This document shows, piece after piece, positions 9,309 through 32,250 of a stretch of 64,000 bases of DNA. The translations under genes and the position numbers were made by a program. The stretch's first letter is position 1. Each line of letters begins with the position of its first letter. The stretch is from Phycisphaerales bacterium. GTDB lineage: Bacteria > Planctomycetota > Phycisphaerae > Sedimentisphaerales > Anaerobacaceae. The notes under the pieces are model-generated. The model did no database searches and was not told the DNA's origin. It saw nothing but the letters and a program-made list of their open reading frames with translations. The stretch is from contig JAUVYV010000006.1 of NCBI GenBank assembly GCA_030602885.1, positions 29,913-93,912 of the forward strand, read 5' to 3'.

Positions 9309-9790
9309 AGAAAGATTTGTCGAGTCTGGTTGAGCTGCTAAGCAAAGGAGCAGTGGAGTTTGCCGTTGTGGGCGGTTACGCCGGTGTGGTTCATGGGTGC
9401 AGTTACGTCACTGCAGATGTGGATATATGCTGTTTGTTCTCTGAAGAGAACCTGCTGCGACTGCAGAAAGCTCTTTCGGATGTTCATCCGGTTCACCGGA
9501 TGACGCCCGGGCACCAAGCACTACGATTAACCGAGGAAAACTGCGGTCAATTCAAAAATTTGTATCTGGATACGGATATCGGTCAGTTGGATTGTCTGAG
9601 TTTTGTTGAGGGAGTGGGCAGCTTTCTACAAGTGAAGGAGTCCAGCGAGGAGGTCGAAATCGGCGGTGTAGCTGTTTATGTTCTGGGTCTGGAGGCATTG
9701 ATTAAGGCGAAGAAGGCGATGGGCCGGCCTAATGATAAAGAGGCGGTTCTGCAGTTGGAAGCAATACAAAAGCTACGGGAGGAGAAGTAA
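9305..9790 (+). CDS. Minimal nucleotidyltransferase (MNT / AbiEii-like)
   Basis: This 161-aa protein begins at a GTG overlapping the upstream stop. It shows the polymerase-beta nucleotidyltransferase pattern: VVGGYAGVVHG (GGxA...HG helix turn), then TADVDIC with the metal-binding aspartates, and a later carboxylate candidate in DIGQLDCL. It ends with a helical LGLEALIKAKKAMGRPNDKEA segment typical of this superfamily, where Asp and Lys positions contact nucleotide. Such proteins occur as toxins (AbiEii, MenT) and as housekeeping-like orphans. Substrate and direction of action are unknown. With the upstream small gene it forms a two-gene unit of toxin-antitoxin layout. Confidence 0.7.
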   Translation: MKKDLSSLVELLSKGAVEFAVVGGYAGVVHGCSYVTADVDICCLFSEENLLRLQKALSDVHPVHRMTPGHQALRLTEENCGQFKNLYLDTDIGQLDCLSFVEGVGSFLQVKESSEEVEIGGVAVYVLGLEALIKAKKAMGRPNDKEAVLQLEAIQKLREEK

Positions 9791-9838
9791 CGCCGGAGTG
9801 ATTCGGGGAGCCGGCAGCAAAGTCATCCTTTACAATCT

Positions 9839-9867
9839 TTGCAAACCGGGGGGGATGGGATTATAAT
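9839..9867 (+). promoter_or_regulatory. Sigma70-type promoter of glyQS
   Basis: TTGCAA (9839-9844) and a perfect TATAAT (9862-9867) are spaced by 17 nt, 44 nt upstream of the glyQS start codon. Confidence 0.6.
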
Positions 9868-9911
9868 GGGCATTTCGTAAGTTTAAGAATCCATTTGCAT
9901 TAGAGGGTATT

Positions 9912-11393
9912 ATGGCTAAACTGGCGAAGCTGGATGATATCGTGAGTTTGTGCAAGCGGCGTGGTTTTATATTTCAGAGCAGTGAGATATACGGGGGATT
10001 GGCGAGCTGTTACGACTATGGGCCTTTGGGGGTGGAGCTGAAGAATAATGTGCGCAAGGCCTGGTGGAAAGCGGTCGTTCAGATGCGCGACGACGTGGTG
10101 GGGTTAGACTGTTCGATATTGATGCACCCTTTGGTGTGGAAGGCATCGGGACATGCGGACAAGTTTGCGGATTTGATATGCGAGTGCAAGAAGTGCAATA
10201 CGCGGACGCGGGTTGACCATCTGAAGGACAAGGCAGAAGAAGGGGCGGCGGCACAGGAGCATATCGAGCACGTGGATATCGAAAAGGAAGTGGCGGCGCA
10301 ACACGATTTGAGTAACAAGGTGTGCCCCGATTGCGGCAAGGTCGGTAACTTTACCGAGCCGATGCCGTTTAAGCTGATGTTCGAGACGCAGATGGGTGCG
10401 AACGTCGATGATTCGATGACACTCTTTTTGCGGCCTGAGACGGCACAGGGGATATTTGCGAATTTCAGGAACGTATTGGATACGACGCGGGTGAAGATAC
10501 CGTTCGGAATTGCGCAGATAGGAAAGAGCTTTCGCAACGAGGTGACGACGAAGGCGTTTATCTTTCGGACGCGAGAATTCGAGCAGGCGGAATTAGAGTT
10601 TTTCTGTGAGCCGGGGACGGACGACGAGTGGTTCGAGCACTGGAAGGAGCAGCGGTTCAACTGGTACCTGAATTTAGGGATAAAGAAAGAAAACCTGAGG
10701 TTCAGAGAGCACGATGCGGATGAATTGGCGCACTATGCCAAGGGGTGTGTCGATGTGGAGTATAAGTTTCCGTTCGGCTCGGGCGACTGGCAGGAGTTGG
10801 AGGGGATTGCGAACCGGACGGATTATGACCTGCGGCAGCATCAGCGTGGGATGCGGACGCTGAATGCGTGGTTCGAGGCGAAAGGGGACTTGGCGAAGAT
10901 TGAATTGAAAGCCGAAGCGGAGGAGTATTTGAAGGGGCCTTTGTCTTATTTCGACGATGTCGAGAAAAAGCGATACATACCGTATGTGATTGAGCCGAGC
11001 GCAGGCATAGACAGGAGCACGTTGGCGTTTTTAGTCGATGCGTATGACGAGGAAGAGGTGCGGGGCGAGAAGCGAAACCTGCTGCGGTTTCACCCAGCGC
11101 TTGCGCCGACGAAGGTTGCCGTCTTTCCATTGGTGAGGAAGGACGGGATGCCGGAGATTGCGCGGAATATCTATAATGATTTGAAGGAACATTTTACGAC
11201 GTTCTACGATGAGAAAGGGGCGGTGGGCAGGCGGTATCGTCGGCAGGATGAGGCGGGGACGCCCTTTTGCATCACTGTTGACGGCCAGACTCTGGAAGAC
11301 AAGACGGTGACAGTTCGCGAGCGGGATTCGATGGAGCAGGTGCGGGTGGCGACGGATAAGCTGCCTGGGCATTTACGAGAAAAACTGGTTTAG
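9912..11393 (+). CDS. glyQS: Glycyl-tRNA synthetase, dimeric eukaryote/archaeal type
   Basis: This 493-aa class II synthetase charges tRNA-Gly in the cytosol. It is the single-chain alpha2 type, not the alpha2beta2 GlyQ+GlyS type. Motif 1 region is SSEIYGGLASCYDYGPLG near the N-terminus. A CxxC...CxxC zinc-like insert is seen (CECKKCN and CPDCGKVG). Motif 2 is seen in IAQIGKSFRNE and TREFEQAELEFF, and motif 3 in PSAGIDRSTLAF. The C-terminal anticodon-binding domain begins at LAPTKVAVFPL. The start ATG follows GAGGGTATT. Length and motifs are normal for the family. Confidence 0.97.
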   Translation: MAKLAKLDDIVSLCKRRGFIFQSSEIYGGLASCYDYGPLGVELKNNVRKAWWKAVVQMRDDVVGLDCSILMHPLVWKASGHADKFADLICECKKCNTRTRVDHLKDKAEEGAAAQEHIEHVDIEKEVAAQHDLSNKVCPDCGKVGNFTEPMPFKLMFETQMGANVDDSMTLFLRPETAQGIFANFRNVLDTTRVKIPFGIAQIGKSFRNEVTTKAFIFRTREFEQAELEFFCEPGTDDEWFEHWKEQRFNWYLNLGIKKENLRFREHDADELAHYAKGCVDVEYKFPFGSGDWQELEGIANRTDYDLRQHQRGMRTLNAWFEAKGDLAKIELKAEAEEYLKGPLSYFDDVEKKRYIPYVIEPSAGIDRSTLAFLVDAYDEEEVRGEKRNLLRFHPALAPTKVAVFPLVRKDGMPEIARNIYNDLKEHFTTFYDEKGAVGRRYRRQDEAGTPFCITVDGQTLEDKTVTVRERDSMEQVRVATDKLPGHLREKLV

Positions 11394-26160: not shown

Positions 26161-26522
26161 AGCTTACCTCCTAACGTTAACATTCACAATTTACCCATCC
26201 AACCCGGAACGCACATAACCCCTCGCGCCCGGGACTGTTTACTCCGCCCGGTATTAGCCTGACTGCCTTACTGAACAGTTTTGCGTTTCGACTTATCGCC
26301 ATTGGTCCGGTTCCAGGATAACCGTTAGCATAAGCGTTGCCCTGATAAAAAGATATAATAACACGGGAGAGTGGGACAGGCACCTTTTTTCGCAGAGACG
26401 GGGGGGAAACGGCCAGTGGCGGGGTCGAACTGGGCCCCGGATCGGAGTCCGGGGTCCCGCCGGAGGCGGGTAAACTGCGCGACCTTGGCGTTGGGTCCCC
26501 TGCTGCTGGGCCATTGGAGGAG

Positions 26523-26570
26523 CAGTTCCTCTGCTGCAGGACCAAAGTAGCAATCCCTCGAGAACAAGCG
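26523..26570 (+). repeat. 48-bp direct repeat, left copy
   Basis: The sequence beginning CAGTTCCTCTGCTGCAGG and ending ACAAGCG recurs at 32109-32156 in the same orientation with a single mismatch (A/G). The two copies bracket the island. Confidence 0.85.
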
Positions 26571-26592
26571 GGGGTCTGCGCGACCCTGGCGG

Positions 26593-27299: not shown

Positions 27300-28361
27300 T
27301 TACTTACCGTTATGGAGTGAATACGTTTTCATGCGAAGACACAGTGGGTCCGGAGCTTTAAGCAATTGTCCGTGCGTTATATACTTCTGGGCCGTACAAC
27401 CGGAACAACATTGATTGACGTCTCTACATTTTGAACAGGGTAAGTGCAAAGGAGCGGCAATGTATTCTCGTACCGAATTTAGGTAGGGGGAATTCTGCCA
27501 ACATTCACGAAGGGACCATTTGGCCAGCGTAGAGTAAGCATCAGTCCCAACAACATCCATACTCTTTACCTGCTTGAAAGCATCACAGGGTGAAATAGTC
27601 AAATCTGGCGCAACCGTTAATCTGTCAATGCCAGCCATGCACTTGGGGCTCTGACTACATAATAGTATGCTGTATGGTGAGCCAATTCGGATCTCCACGT
27701 ATTTCTTAGCATCGATTATTAACTGGGATAGTGCCTTGGTTTGCTTCTGAGACAAGACAATTCCATCTACTCCTTTACTTCGACCCTGGGGAACAAGGCG
27801 TAAAATGCTAAGTTGTTCAATGCCGAGTTGCCCGGCTAAGCTAGCAAGCTTAGGAAGCTCTAAGTAATTGGCTACCATTGGCACAAAATGAAGCTCCGTT
27901 TTCAAACCGAGTGATTTTGAATGACGAATTGCTTCTATGGTCTGCTGGTGACTTTCGCCTACCATTGTTACTGCATCATGCGTGGCTGGTGTTGCAGCAT
28001 AGAGGCTGAAGATAATTCGATGCAAGCCAGAATCAGCTAGGTTTTTGATTATAGTCTTGCTATTGGGAACGACGCCTGAGGTGTACACGGTAGCCGGCAG
28101 TTCTGCTTCGGTACAATTGTGAATCAACCTTCTAAGATTCGGCCATAGCAGCGGATCTCCACCAGAGAAAGCGATGTGCTGGACTCCCATGGCAATCGCT
28201 TGGCTGATTATGCGATCCGCATCTGTATATGACATTTCTGCCGTGCTGTCTGAACATGCTTCACTGGAACAGTGGATACATCGCAACAAGCAGCGATATG
28301 TCAGTTCAAGTTTGATTTCTTTCAAAGTATAACGGTTGGACAATGGCACTTCCTGCCTCAT
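27300..28361 (-). CDS. Radical SAM protein with C-terminal Cys cluster
   Basis: A 353-aa radical SAM enzyme. The 4Fe-4S motif CxxxCxxC is CLLRCIHC at about 29-36, followed by IAFSGGDPLLWP (the GGE-like SAM-binding motif). The C-terminal third has a SPASM/twitch-like set of cysteines (CMAGIDRLTVAP...CDAF, then CSKC, CCSGC and a last CLRMK) that may bind one or two auxiliary clusters. Such enzymes modify peptides or, in some phages, hypermodified nucleobases. It is the last gene of the operon, 8 nt after the hypermodification protein. The start ATG has no strong ribosome site, consistent with coupling; an in-frame TTG six codons later follows AGGAAG. The substrate is unknown. Confidence 0.85.
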   Translation of the reverse strand: MRQEVPLSNRYTLKEIKLELTYRCLLRCIHCSSEACSDSTAEMSYTDADRIISQAIAMGVQHIAFSGGDPLLWPNLRRLIHNCTEAELPATVYTSGVVPNSKTIIKNLADSGLHRIIFSLYAATPATHDAVTMVGESHQQTIEAIRHSKSLGLKTELHFVPMVANYLELPKLASLAGQLGIEQLSILRLVPQGRSKGVDGIVLSQKQTKALSQLIIDAKKYVEIRIGSPYSILLCSQSPKCMAGIDRLTVAPDLTISPCDAFKQVKSMDVVGTDAYSTLAKWSLRECWQNSPYLNSVREYIAAPLHLPCSKCRDVNQCCSGCTAQKYITHGQLLKAPDPLCLRMKTYSLHNGK

Positions 28362-28369
28362 CGATGGTT

Positions 28370-29389
28370 CTATGTGCTTCTAAGCATATTGTTTATATTC
28401 CATTTAGGAGGATACCAATAGTGAATGGGATCAGCTATAGGCTTAAATTTCTGCTTGATGCGTGTTCGTCCCGATCCATTAGCTTCAGGATGGGCAATAC
28501 GGGAATACTTATCCACTTCGCAAAACAGGTTCTGACAATCAATCAACTGCAAGGGTCTGTCTCCAAGGTATTGGAAGGTTAACCCTAAACGCTCAAATTC
28601 TTCCTTTTGTCTGTTTGTAACACGAAGGATTAGTTCTGGTTCGGAAAGGCCACCAAGTGATTTAAAGCACTTATAGATTCCATTTTTTGCCCCGGGACCA
28701 GGAACAACAAATTCCATTTCAGAAAAATCTGTTAACTCGCTGTAGTTCAAGTCTGTGACCAACTGATAGGCAAGGAAGTCGCCGATAGTTGGATATGAAC
28801 GCAGAATATCAAATGCTGCTGCCATGTTGCGAGCGTTTGATATCAATTCGTAAGCACGATCTTCCATCATTCTTTCCAATAGCTTGAGATGGTTACTATG
28901 TTTTCGAGTGAAGCCAAACGCAGAGTTTCCACTCGGCATGATATATGCGGCCGAATATATGGGTTGTTTGCAATCCATAGTCTTGCTGAGTAATTTGTCA
29001 TAGTCGGCAAAGGAGTACCCAGAATAGCAGATCGTACCCAATTCGTTTGTAAGCATTTCCCATGTCTCAATCTTGTTGAACAGCTTGAACAGAATTATCC
29101 GAAAAAAGACTTCTGGCGGTGAGGGGTCGCCTTTGTAAATTACCTCTCGAATAAGGTATTGACTTACGCGGTCTGACGCACGATAGGCGTTGGTAAACTT
29201 ATACTTTTGCAGGATCGCATCTTCCGTCCAAGGGCCCCACTGCTTGCCCATTCGGCGGAAAAAGACTGCCTGTCGCTCTACAGCAAACCGCCAGTAGGTG
29301 TCAAAGACAACCGACGGGATAGCAGGAGCCCATGCTCGTCGCACCATTTCTGGTGCAACTAATTCTGATGATGCGAGGGTGTTAGGCAT
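28370..29389 (-). CDS. DNA-base hypermodification-like protein (HMUDK_hel / thymine pyrophosphorylase superfamily)
   Basis: This 339-aa protein resembles the family annotated as putative DNA base hypermodification protein, with the helical domain found in 5-hydroxymethyluracil DNA kinases and related to alpha-glutamyl/putrescinyl-thymine pyrophosphorylases. Features by eye are YWRFAVERQAVFFRR (32-46), WTEDAILQKYKFTNAYR and ASDRVSQYLI (54-80), IYSAAYIMPSG (144-153), a helix-hairpin-helix-like YPTIGDFLAYQ (199-209), DFSEMEFVVPGPGAK (221-235) and QLIDCQNLFCEVDKY (281-295). No P-loop kinase motif is visible, so it is probably the DNA- or base-binding enzyme alone. GAGGG precedes the chosen ATG; an upstream in-frame start would overlap the previous gene by 41 bp. 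It overlaps the thymidylate-synthase homologue by 8 bp. The assignment is from memory of family motifs. Confidence 0.75.
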   Translation of the reverse strand: MPNTLASSELVAPEMVRRAWAPAIPSVVFDTYWRFAVERQAVFFRRMGKQWGPWTEDAILQKYKFTNAYRASDRVSQYLIREVIYKGDPSPPEVFFRIILFKLFNKIETWEMLTNELGTICYSGYSFADYDKLLSKTMDCKQPIYSAAYIMPSGNSAFGFTRKHSNHLKLLERMMEDRAYELISNARNMAAAFDILRSYPTIGDFLAYQLVTDLNYSELTDFSEMEFVVPGPGAKNGIYKCFKSLGGLSEPELILRVTNRQKEEFERLGLTFQYLGDRPLQLIDCQNLFCEVDKYSRIAHPEANGSGRTRIKQKFKPIADPIHYWYPPKWNINNMLRST

Positions 29390-30164
29390 TAGTCCCTCGC
29401 GCTCTTTCGTAATCCTCAACACACGATTTTATGTTAAGCGCCAAATGTCGCAATGGAGTCTTCGCTGGAGTCCCTACACATGCTACGCCAACGAAGCATG
29501 TCATTTGAGCCAACTCCAAGCCCATTTGAGTTGCCATAAACTGTCCCAACCGACACAAGCCCAAATAGTTGCCATACCCACGATCGAAAATATGTTCTTT
29601 AGGGTAATACCCCGTAACACAAAGCCCTGATTTGTGGATTCGTGCAAAGCCCACTTGCTGAAGGCAGGGAAAACCACGTTGTCGTTGGTGTGTAGCATCG
29701 CAGGTAGGATCAAATATGGAGGCTTGAAGAGCACTACGGCGATGATTACCTTTGTTTGTATAGGTCTCAATAATGTACTCAAGCTGATTCTTCTTGCTGT
29801 CACCAACTCCATAGGCGATGAGGCGTTCAAAGTACACTCCATTGTAGTTGCCCTTGCATTTATGAATCTGGCTTAGGATTCGCAGATATCGTTGATAAAG
29901 GAGAGTCCGTTCTTTGTTACGGTTCCAATAACTTCTTGGAAATATAGTGTTGGCTACCGTATGGCAAGACCCCAAAGAGTTAGATGCCAAACTAACATCA
30001 ACTGCTTTTCGGATTTCCTCGTGTTCAGGAATGAGGTCATTGCTCAAGTCTGTGACTGTTACCGTCATAGGTGAAATCTCAGGGTGTTTCATAGTTGCCA
30101 AAAAGGCTTTTGCCCAAGCGATTGAAAGATTCGCTTCATTGATGTGTGTCGAATAGCTACTCAT
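29382..30164 (-). CDS. Thymidylate synthase-family protein (pyrimidine hydroxymethylase candidate)
   Basis: A 260-aa member of the thymidylate synthase superfamily. The active-site cysteine is Cys167 in RGFPCLQQV. The segment FDRGYGNYLGLCRLGQFMA (193-211) corresponds to the nucleotide- and folate-contacting Asp/Asn region, with Asn199 the candidate for the conserved pyrimidine-contacting Asn. Relatives include ThyA and phage or antibiotic-pathway enzymes that make 5-hydroxymethyl-dUMP, -dCMP or -CMP. It diverges strongly from housekeeping ThyA, so a hydroxymethylase is more likely than dTMP synthesis (inference). The ATG at 30164 has a perfect GGAGG six bases upstream; an extension to 30302 would run inside the peptidase gene. 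It overlaps both neighbours by 8 bp. Confidence 0.8.
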   Translation of the reverse strand: MSSYSTHINEANLSIAWAKAFLATMKHPEISPMTVTVTDLSNDLIPEHEEIRKAVDVSLASNSLGSCHTVANTIFPRSYWNRNKERTLLYQRYLRILSQIHKCKGNYNGVYFERLIAYGVGDSKKNQLEYIIETYTNKGNHRRSALQASIFDPTCDATHQRQRGFPCLQQVGFARIHKSGLCVTGYYPKEHIFDRGYGNYLGLCRLGQFMATQMGLELAQMTCFVGVACVGTPAKTPLRHLALNIKSCVEDYERARGTNA

Positions 30165-31020
30165 GATCGACCTCCGGAAAATGGCGATATTGTGCCAAGC
30201 CTTCAAAATGCAGGCGTGAAACTCTGATGTGTGACGCCCAACGTTCGGCTTCATTCTGCGCTCTATCGATACCTTGAGCAACAGCTCTGTATAGCAAACC
30301 ATGTGGACAGGTCGCTATGAACTCCATACGAGTTGCCTCAAGAATTGTTTGTGAGGGTACAACAAGAATATCTCCTACACAAAGATCGACAGGTTTCTCT
30401 CCCCAATACTTATCCAGGAGTATGAGTTCTCCCGAATGCTCAACTCCTGCAATCGCACTTTTAAGAATTTTGGGAGAAACTCTACTTAATCGCTGAAAAC
30501 TGCGTGATGAAATAAGACCAAGTGAACGATACATGTGTGTTAATAATGATTGGTATCCAACCCCAATATGGCCAGAGACGGCAAAGGTTTGCTCCGGAGT
30601 ACATTCATCTATCTTCCAGCCTCTACTAGTAAATGCCTTGCATACGGCTAATTTAGGCATCAGAAGGAAACCAGCAAAACAATCAGCAAGAAACTCGTCT
30701 GGGTCCCATTGCTTCTTTGATACAGAATCGATGACTTCGTCTATTCGATTCCCATGGGCGAAGACATGATGTCCATATTCATGTGCACAAGTAAATGCTA
30801 ATCTGCCTCGAGGGCGGCAAGATGAAAGTAATATAAGTGGATTCTCATCATTGTAGTAAAGGCCCTCCATGCTTGAGATATTTTGAAAACGAACCTCAAT
30901 ACCAAAATGATACATTAAGTCACAGACACAAATAGAAGAGGCAGGGCCTATTTTGGCGCGGCGACGCTCCTGAATAGCTGCTCTATGTGCCTTGCGAGCC
31001 AATTTCACTTTTGTACTCAT
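30157..31020 (-). CDS. ImmA/IrrE-family (DUF955) zinc metallopeptidase
   Basis: This 287-aa protein carries the zinc peptidase motif HEYGHH at about 80-85 in FTCAHEYGHHVFAHG, and a downstream DEFLADCFAGFLLMP that supplies the third ligand (Glu/Asp), as in the DUF955 family. Members such as ImmA of ICEBs1 and IrrE/PprI cleave an XRE-type repressor to switch on mobile-element or DNA-damage genes. The N-terminus is basic (KVKLARKAHRAAIQERRRAK). A C-terminal domain of about 100 residues follows the peptidase and may sense a signal. The start overlaps the stop of the XRE gene by 4 bp, so the pair is translated together. Confidence 0.88.
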   Translation of the reverse strand: MSTKVKLARKAHRAAIQERRRAKIGPASSICVCDLMYHFGIEVRFQNISSMEGLYYNDENPLILLSSCRPRGRLAFTCAHEYGHHVFAHGNRIDEVIDSVSKKQWDPDEFLADCFAGFLLMPKLAVCKAFTSRGWKIDECTPEQTFAVSGHIGVGYQSLLTHMYRSLGLISSRSFQRLSRVSPKILKSAIAGVEHSGELILLDKYWGEKPVDLCVGDILVVPSQTILEATRMEFIATCPHGLLYRAVAQGIDRAQNEAERWASHIRVSRLHFEGLAQYRHFPEVDHE

Positions 31021-31367
31021 TGCCCTCTACCTCTCTTTGGCCGCAAGGCACTAAGCAACTTCATTATTTTGTCGAGATCATCAGATTTGAGCTTCGCCAA
31101 TTGACGAGCAGCAAAGCGAACACGTCTGTCATCATGTTCAGAATCTGATTCTGAGCCAGCCAGCCATTTCATGTCGATACAGTATATTTCCGACAGTCTT
31201 GTCAGTTCATCCGCTGAGACCCGGCGGCGGCCAGCTTCCATCTCAGAGATAGACGGTCGATGGAGCCCAAGAAGTTTTGCGACTTGAGCCTGTGATAGCC
31301 CGGCCATTTCGCGCGCTGTTCTAAGGCGTGATGCAATTAGCTTGCGACCTTCACCTAAATCAGTCAT
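31017..31367 (-). CDS. XRE-family transcriptional regulator
   Basis: This 116-aa protein has an N-terminal Cro/CI-type helix-turn-helix (about 13-67): LRTAREMAGLSQAQVAKLLGLHRPS, then EAGRRRVSADELTRLSEIY. A charged linker and a helical C-terminus (LAKLKSDDLDKIMKLLSALRPKRGRG) follow, probably for dimerisation or as the peptidase target. It is predicted to bind the palindrome at 31673-31687 over the operon promoter and to be removed by the adjacent ImmA/IrrE peptidase. It overlaps both neighbouring genes by 4 bp. Confidence 0.9.
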   Translation of the reverse strand: MTDLGEGRKLIASRLRTAREMAGLSQAQVAKLLGLHRPSISEMEAGRRRVSADELTRLSEIYCIDMKWLAGSESDSEHDDRRVRFAARQLAKLKSDDLDKIMKLLSALRPKRGRGQ

Positions 31368-31651
31368 GATTTCTTCCTCTTCTTTGAAGTAGCCTCAAGA
31401 ATACGATCTGCAATTTCACCGACGGACAAAGCACGTGTGCCGTCTTGGGAGGCACACAAGTTGCCAACGTCACCTATGTTAACTTCTGCGTCAACCATTG
31501 CGGCAAACTCAACTCCACTGAGGCTATCAAAGCCAAGGAGATCGCCGATCGGAACCGTTTCCTCATTTATACTAATTTTCTCGCGACCACTAATGTCTTG
31601 GATTTCCAAGAGTAGCTTTGCGGCAAGTTTCACGATTTCATTACGAGTCAT
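31364..31651 (-). CDS. Acyl/peptidyl carrier protein-like small acidic protein
   Basis: This 95-aa helical protein has an LLGFDSLSGVEFAAM motif in which Ser43 of DSL sits where carrier proteins bear the 4'-phosphopantetheine arm. Helix I (IVKLAAKLLLEIQDI) and helix III placement also fit the carrier fold. The C-terminus is a basic KKRKKS tail, unusual for an ACP. It is the first gene of the operon, directly downstream of the promoter/operator, with GGAG eight bases before its ATG. A carrier protein here suggests that an acyl or aminoacyl group is delivered to the modified pyrimidine (inference). The alternative is a non-pantetheinylated regulator that mimics the fold. Confidence 0.6.
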   Translation of the reverse strand: MTRNEIVKLAAKLLLEIQDISGREKISINEETVPIGDLLGFDSLSGVEFAAMVDAEVNIGDVGNLCASQDGTRALSVGEIADRILEATSKKRKKS

Positions 31652-31672
31652 CTTTTTGCTCCTTACAGTTAA

Positions 31673-31687
31673 GTAAGATTATCTTAC
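31673..31687. promoter_or_regulatory. Perfect 7-1-7 palindromic operator
   Basis: GTAAGAT-T-ATCTTAC is a perfect inverted repeat with a 1-nt centre. It covers the -10 box of the operon promoter, where a bound XRE dimer would block RNA polymerase. It is the likely autoregulatory site of the XRE protein in the operon. Confidence 0.7.
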
Positions 31688-31709
31688 ATCGAACTTTGGC
31701 TTCTGGCAA
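31681..31709 (-). promoter_or_regulatory. Promoter of the hypermodification operon
   Basis: On the minus strand TTGCCA (5 of 6 consensus) and TAAGAT are separated by exactly 17 nt. The predicted start lies about 25 nt upstream of the first ATG. The -10 box overlaps the palindromic operator. Confidence 0.65.
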
Positions 31710-32030: not shown

Positions 32031-32108
32031 GCGGAGGGCCATCTCACGGGGCAAGCGGGGAAAGTGAGAAGTAAGAATGGGTCCTCTGTAGCCAAGCCAA
32101 GGTAGCGA

Positions 32109-32156
32109 CAGTTCCTCTGCTGCAGGACCAAAGTAGCAATCCCTCGAGGACAAGCG
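32109..32156 (+). repeat. 48-bp direct repeat, right copy
   Basis: It matches 26523-26570 in 47 of 48 positions and in the same orientation, so the island lies between two direct repeats about 5.6 kb apart. The surrounding 32031-32250 holds no gene. Confidence 0.85.
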
Positions 32157-32250
32157 AGGATAAACTCAGGGTAAACTCAAGTGTGCAACCCGCCGGTGGA
32201 ACCGGGGGCTAAATATTTCGCCTGCAGGCAGGTGGGGGGGGTTAGTCGGT

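Follow-up and report, generated by a model that had tools for sequence, protein, structure and literature searches.

Several described systems stand closest to the locus considered here. Phages of the M6, PaMx11 and ViI type build hypermodified thymidine with a deoxyuridine monophosphate (dUMP) hydroxymethylase, a 5-hydroxymethyl-deoxyuridine (5-hmdU) DNA kinase, and an amino acid:DNA transferase (ADDT), and some phages use a radical S-adenosylmethionine (SAM) step in this process. In the cyclic oligonucleotide-based anti-phage signaling system (CBASS), the XRE/IrrE-type pair CapH/CapP acts by cleavage upon exposure to single-stranded DNA. Bacterial neighbourhoods combining thymidylate synthase (TS) with aGPT-PPlase/HMUDK proteins were reportedly predicted by Iyer in 2013 and by Burroughs in 2015; these are the nearest bioinformatic forerunners, and no novelty is claimed for the TS/HMUDK pairing. 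As far as the accessible text of the sources goes, the phage TS/aGPT pairing is treated in PMC9599517 and 5hmdU kinase activity in PMC7653180, and the DefensePredictor study (PMC13092281) includes a 5-hydroxymethyluracil kinase and a thymidylate synthase in its set of domains newly validated against phages in E. coli and lists MazG, MazG-C, and dUTPase as predicted, unvalidated defence domains. The stretch of DNA analysed here, 64,000 nucleotides from a Phycisphaerales bacterium (hereafter the window), carries a six-gene operon that is read, at a probability of about 0.5, as an inducible, carrier-linked pyrimidine-modification module, probably serving anti-phage defence.

The operon forms a module complete in itself, and a single repressor-type palindrome stands at its promoter. 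It runs on the minus strand from 31651 to 27300 and encodes, in order, a carrier-like protein, an XRE protein, an IrrE-type peptidase, a TS-like enzyme, an HMUDK_hel protein, and a radical SAM enzyme, neighbouring genes overlapping by 4 or 8 bases apart from one gap of 8 bases. Family hits come from Pfam and PADLOC profile scans, and the preliminary description, made from the letters of the window, of six overlapping minus-strand genes is confirmed. The features, in the direction of transcription, are as follows:

31704..31709, minus strand: -35 box TTGCCA, 17 nt from the TAAGAT within the operator palindrome (read from the sequence)
31673..31687, minus strand: operator palindrome GTAAGATAATCTTAC, which includes the predicted -10 box; 2 mismatches to the consensus
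31364..31651, minus strand: carrier protein, acyl carrier protein (ACP)-like, 95 aa, with the serine in G-F-D-S-L (profile and conserved Ser)
31017..31367, minus strand: XRE-family repressor, CapH-like, 116 aa (HTH_31, 2.1e-14; capH, 2.6e-15)
30157..31020, minus strand: ImmA/IrrE-type metallopeptidase, CapP-like, 287 aa (Peptidase_M78, 5.8e-12; capP, 4.8e-13)
29382..30164, minus strand: TS-like enzyme with a thymidylate-synthase fold, a catalytic-type Cys167, and Asn199, no R-S-x-D
28370..29389, minus strand: HMUDK_hel protein, solo form without a P-loop kinase domain (PF18723)
27300..28361, minus strand: radical SAM enzyme in an exchangeable last slot (PF04055, 3.6e-18)

To survey relatives, an alignment of 29 TS-like proteins was used as bait, giving 84 loci: the best 80 of the 102 that were confirmed in species-representative genomes, and 4 in viral contigs. 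The XRE, IrrE, and TS-like genes follow one another in this order on one strand in 77/84 loci; the carrier gene precedes them in 71 (15 phylum labels), and in 51 (13 phylum labels) this four-gene series has HMUDK next downstream on the same strand. The genes therefore co-occur widely, and the lack of co-occurrence that the preliminary description named as a refutation is not seen. With the window excluded, XRE and IrrE are each recovered in 79/84 loci and HMUDK_hel in 75/84, and the five loci without XRE or a full IrrE (L006, L028, L029, L069, and L075) start at a contig end just before the TS-like gene. The order varies in L076 and L078, where the TS-like gene precedes XRE, and in the actinobacterial loci, where HMUDK lies mostly on the opposite strand. 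All three additional contigs, new to the survey, carry the five core genes. Among genomes of the class, 15 of 298 have the TS-like gene; an earlier draw from the phylum gave 3 of 294, and the gene was not found in the 20 same-family genomes listed among the class genomes searched; such patchiness fits the distribution expected of a transferred module.

Relatives are also carried by plasmids, and 13 of the 18 plasmids with a TS-like gene are conjugative. Six regions picked from these 18 contain XRE and IrrE without exception, and a carrier lies upstream in each: the profile recognizes five of the carriers, and the sixth matches PP-binding weakly. Counting all eight plasmid regions that have the carrier/XRE/IrrE trio, six of them found with the TS-like protein as bait, a TS-like gene accompanies the trio in 8/8, in one case split over two frames. 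An HMUDK bait matched 21 plasmids, and of four regions inspected, two have the gene set and two do not. One plasmid variant (L150, L151, and L153) runs carrier, XRE, IrrE, a C1 peptidase, and TS-like, with MazG on the opposite strand, uracil-DNA glycosylase on the opposite strand in two of the three, and the common palindrome absent. On a Gloeothece plasmid (L119, 114-4024), a CBASS-type phospholipase, HMUDK_hel, a MazG-type protein, and a TIR protein stand consecutively without the carrier module.

The first part of the proposed module is its switch. The best PADLOC matches of the XRE and IrrE proteins are capH and capP, respectively, and the HExxH motif is conserved, with H80, E81, H84, and E109 kept in 79 or 80 of 80 IrrE rows. 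A palindrome, GGTAAGA-N3-TCTTACC, lies mostly 14-38 nt upstream of the carrier start; called at no more than 3 mismatches of 14, it is present in 60/74 rows (those of 59 loci plus that of the window, under 13 phylum labels) vs 7/740 shuffles made by swaps preserving dinucleotides, and in 60/62 rows when 12 actinobacterial-type rows are set aside. Because a -35 box (at least 5 of 6 matches to TTGACA) stands 16-18 nt from the TAAGAT within the palindrome in 35/60 rows, vs about 0.9/60 in shuffled upstream DNA, the palindrome in these rows covers the predicted -10 box. Its 15-bp core, GTAAGANNNTCTTAC, has a single exact site in the host genome (3.2 Mb, 128 contigs), at the operon. Outside the derivation set, the palindrome recurs in 4/4 main-architecture plasmids (0, 0, 1, and 1 mismatches) and in the three additional contigs (1, 1, and 2 mismatches). 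Exact GGTAAGAWWWTCTTACC was found in none of 392 genomes of the phylum, host included, and this search therefore could not expose carrier/XRE/IrrE sets with other cargo. Among viral contigs, four stretches contain the exact longer palindrome, of which L145 (the contig of L085) has the module. The layout is thus of the CapH/CapP type, combining XRE repressor, HExxH peptidase, and promoter palindrome, the last of which the XRE protein presumably binds, and the suggestion of a repressor/peptidase switch gains an operator of its own.

The carrier protein, suspected from the window, proves to be kept across phyla. The open reading frame (ORF) directly upstream of XRE falls in one cluster in 73 of the 76 loci in which an ORF was picked, two of the 73 being probably wrong-frame, and the phosphopantetheine attachment serine (DSL-like motif) is kept in 72/74 aligned rows, the two rows without it (L074 and L084) looking like wrong-frame picks; by eye, it is present in all eight plasmid copies. 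A profile built from 14 chosen rows of the 74 matches 100 sequences in the PDB at E up to 1 (best E 0.0018), and among the 60 matches listed, 56 are named carrier proteins, the rest being an uncharacterized protein, NDUAB1-alpha, NDUAB1-beta, and SDAP1. The Pfam PP-binding model leaves the window carrier under its cut-off (15.8 vs 20.8 bits) and matches 5 of 14 relatives at E up to 1; the Allocoleopsis copy is annotated as an acyl carrier protein. Since the profile recovers 7/8 plasmid carriers, the eighth (L153) matching PP-binding weakly, and a tblastn search with the L048 carrier finds none in plasmids, the gene appears to diverge fast. Six relatives overall have a holo-ACP synthase gene next to the module or within it: in L076 and L078 (2/84 loci by one query, L076 being confirmed as PF01648) and in 4/8 plasmid regions, from Rhizobium rosettiformans, R. 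ruizarguesonis, Sinorhizobium fredii, and Bradyrhizobium. This proximity is the strongest sign that the phosphopantetheine arm of the carrier is used; the host genome encodes AcpS outside the operon.

Given that the carrier-type ORF lies directly before XRE in 73/76 loci and that a loading enzyme is not encoded, the carrier might instead be a part of the switch, its acylation or phosphopantetheine state informing IrrE/XRE of the condition of the cell or phage, with the TS-like and HMUDK_hel proteins acting without it. This arrangement is regarded as doubtful: we know of no CapH/CapP-type switch with a carrier protein, and the constant company of the TS-like gene with the trio on plasmids speaks against it, albeit in regions mostly baited with that gene.

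The TS-like enzyme adopts the thymidylate-synthase fold and so belongs to the superfamily. Cys167 and Asn199, the latter at the pyrimidine-reading position, are each kept in 83/83 rows and in 7/7 plasmid copies. The window protein has no PF00303 match and lacks the combination of Cys with R-S-x-D that marks canonical ThyA and dUMP hydroxymethylase: Y-P-K-E stands in place of the N-R-S-N-D of phage TS, and Arg occupies the arginine position of R-S-x-D in 15/83 rows, so that the use of dUMP and of folate cannot simply be assumed. The idea that this synthase makes a 5-hydroxymethyl pyrimidine is accordingly not upheld, the canonical synthase of relatives being a separate gene that the window operon does not contain. 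In a TS-like tree of 83 rows, made by a quick method, L005, L058, and L006 are nearest to the window, and in each of them the last slot is occupied by radical SAM. Since the host carries a further TS-family gene (C7), a housekeeping role is not the preferred view. That gene, the host's only PF00303 match, encodes a divergent protein of 296 aa (L089, 1375-2265) scoring just 31.6 bits, and a search of the host genome for ThyX found none, so that the identity of the host's main thymidylate synthase is not beyond doubt.

The protein encoded by 28370-29389 is HMUDK_hel as proposed, scoring 366 bits against a cut-off of 25 (PF18723) and falling in no unrelated family. The kinase step that the family name would suggest does not survive for the window copy: it has no Walker A motif (G-x4-GK[ST]) and so lacks the mark of a 5-hmdU DNA kinase, a long fused HMUDK with Walker A being present in 23/84 loci. 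In fold, the HMUDK_hel model resembles PUGT, a DNA-base amino-acid transferase, and DNA glycosylases, and alternatives among unlisted folds may exist. Actinobacterial loci L077 and L080 have a second, more distant HMUDK_hel gene nearby. The domain matches 460 phage records, and in phage Lucjan it adjoins a thymidylate synthase near an ADDT gene, so that ADDT, a P-loop kinase-like gene, HMUDK_hel, and TS all lie within about 5 kb. Together with the conjugative plasmids and a last-slot synthase in L048 that is 30% identical to the Lucjan synthase adjoining HMUDK, these matches would agree with a captured phage thymidine-hypermodification cassette that marks mobile DNA as self. Such an origin is quite improbable: by tblastn, the TS-like protein is found in 0/50,697 phage records, its viral matches are confined to four viral contigs, and the module has its own switch.

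Downstream of these genes lies an exchangeable last slot. In 30/84 loci it holds a second, canonical thymidylate synthase (PF00303 in the 2 tested), with P-C-N and R-S-N-D in 24/24 aligned; in 18, MazG with MazG_C (2 tested); in 11, radical SAM; in three, members of one cluster, among them L014 with a match to a dCTP-deaminase-like model; and in 22, another gene or none. Between TS-like and HMUDK, a thymidylate-kinase-like gene is inserted in 10 loci (1 tested) and a dCTP-deaminase/dUTPase-like gene in five (2 tested). The window operon has no second synthase, MazG, thymidylate-kinase-like gene, deaminase/dUTPase-like gene, or long HMUDK. In L010, the gene after HMUDK (9657-11252) matches TCAD9 and weakly kinase-like domains, which are not the usual last-slot enzymes. 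The radical SAM proteins keep C24, C28, and C31 in 13/13 rows, L025's copy lying outside the slot, and have PqqE and BlsE as sequence relatives with solved structure. As one of at least four alternatives, placed in about four separate parts of the TS-like tree, radical SAM is not the fixed step that had been envisaged.

The composition of the slot bears on two further explanations. The exchangeable genes are pool-enzyme families (thymidylate synthase, MazG/MazG_C, thymidylate-kinase-like, dCTP-deaminase/dUTPase-like), uracil-DNA glycosylase occurs in the plasmid variant, and 9/84 loci lack HMUDK_hel, all of which would suit a nucleotide-pool defence in which thymidine or deoxyuridine nucleotides are removed or corrupted and phage replication starves, no DNA base being decorated. 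That scheme has no need for a carrier protein or holo-ACP synthase, and HMUDK_hel is kept in most loci and has its Lucjan relative in a hypermodification-type cluster; pool defence is therefore considered unlikely. Highly improbable is a nucleoside natural-product cluster like those of mildiomycin or blasticidin, since Pfam identifies no exporter, sugar transferase, or resistance protein among the six, other loci have nucleotide enzymes where the window has radical SAM, and HMUDK_hel is DNA-linked in phages.

The surroundings of the surveyed loci were compared with PADLOC: 115 neighbour proteins, hand-picked from the first 150 of 233 eligible (loci L005-L063), match 276 families at 1e-8 vs 13 for 115 control proteins, drawn at random from 133 proteins encoded far from the loci in 18 of these genomes, and because the tally counts families rather than proteins, with redundant type I restriction models, and some slot-type genes remain among the chosen neighbours, the difference is no more than suggestive of a defence-type neighbourhood. 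Further domains found by Pfam among the neighbour proteins include Nmad2, TIR, OLD-type, and recombinase.

Taken as a carrier-linked modification module, the operon could work as follows. The XRE protein, sitting on the palindrome over the -10 box, would shut off its own operon until a signal, for instance exposed single-stranded DNA, leads IrrE to cleave it, as in CapH/CapP. The holo-carrier would bear, in thioester linkage, an acyl or aminoacyl group, and the TS-like enzyme would activate a pyrimidine through its Cys, the C6 adduct making C5 nucleophilic, so that the activated pyrimidine could accept either a one-carbon unit or the group on the carrier. The flipped base would be the target of HMUDK_hel, and completion would fall to the radical SAM enzyme, the product being a modified pyrimidine made in DNA or in the nucleotide pool upon a stress or infection signal. 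A bolder version, which is held to be unlikely, is C5 acylation, in which C5 attacks the carrier thioester instead of methylene-tetrahydrofolate and the carbon-linked modification is completed by HMUDK_hel and the swappable enzyme.

It should be noted that several observations weigh against this account. The window copy has neither a canonical dUMP hydroxymethylase nor a kinase, and the phage route to 5-phosphomethyl-dU therefore cannot be followed by its six genes alone. The TS-like protein, being the bait, is present in all 84 loci by construction, which biases the survey. No enzyme to load the carrier is encoded in the operon, and AcpS was detected in only 2 of the 84 loci. HMUDK_hel is missing from nine loci, two of which (L019 and L037) break off shortly after TS-like. 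For a helical protein, HMUDK_hel has a modest fold match to PUGT, and a search for a sequence link between them returned a single match, an aquaporin at E 0.92. The palindrome (at most 3 mismatches) is absent from the 12 actinobacterial-type rows, from L012 and L086, and from the four C1-peptidase-variant plasmids (4-6 mismatches), and the viral stretches L143, L144, and L146, which contain the exact longer form, show none of the module genes. To these may be added the composition of the PADLOC neighbour tally and one DNA search for an E. coli counterpart (query L065), which gave no match.

With regard to genomic setting, the window spans positions 29913-93912 of its contig, and the nearest named protein hits belong to Sedimentisphaerales and Phycisphaerae bacteria, which makes a planctomycete host probable. 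The operon has a G+C content of 0.44-0.47 vs 0.49-0.55 in the flanking 3 kb on each side. The proposal of a bacterial island is not upheld as it was stated: low G+C and patchy distribution fit acquisition, but an integration junction was not found. An 82-nt interspersed repeat flanks the operon at 26492-26573 and 32078-32159, the copies being 83% identical. These direct repeats were rejected as island ends because the repeat has 28 matches in the host genome. Between 26608 and 26951, a 43-nt unit rich in TTGGGTTTG occurs four times at a spacing of about 100 nt.

If the proposed reading is true, a widespread and partly plasmid-borne module joins carrier-protein chemistry to DNA-base or nucleotide modification, a link that, to our knowledge, no known system makes. 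It would also explain the role of HMUDK_hel proteins in bacteria and would provide an inducible switch whose operator is portable, along with a tailoring slot in which enzymes can be swapped to make new DNA bases. Should C5 acylation hold, a carrier protein would for the first time be seen to feed a nucleobase modification, and the system would form a defence class of its own across many phyla. The module also gives a concrete setting in which to test how the TS and 5-hmdU kinase domains act in defence. In the literature searched, which included the accessible parts of PMC10853773 and PMC7824862 and left most subscription papers outside, no description of the carrier/XRE/IrrE/TS-like/HMUDK set was found, and a term search of PMC7159879 likewise returned nothing.

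In comparison with known systems, the DefensePredictor systems active against phages in E. coli share domain types with the window operon, 5-hmdU kinase and thymidylate synthase, and the likeness is by domain type alone, the main text of PMC13092281, as far as accessible, mentioning neither a carrier protein nor radical SAM. Phage thymidine hypermodification has HMUDK_hel and a TS-superfamily enzyme in common with the operon, which differs in having no canonical hydroxymethylase, no kinase domain, and no ADDT (PF18724 matches none of the six proteins in Pfam), in a TS-like enzyme unmatched in phage records, and in the addition of a carrier protein and an XRE/IrrE switch. CapH/CapP of CBASS share the pair of XRE protein and IrrE-type peptidase; here, in an operon without a CBASS effector, the pair follows a carrier gene, precedes nucleotide enzymes, and has a conserved palindrome of its own.

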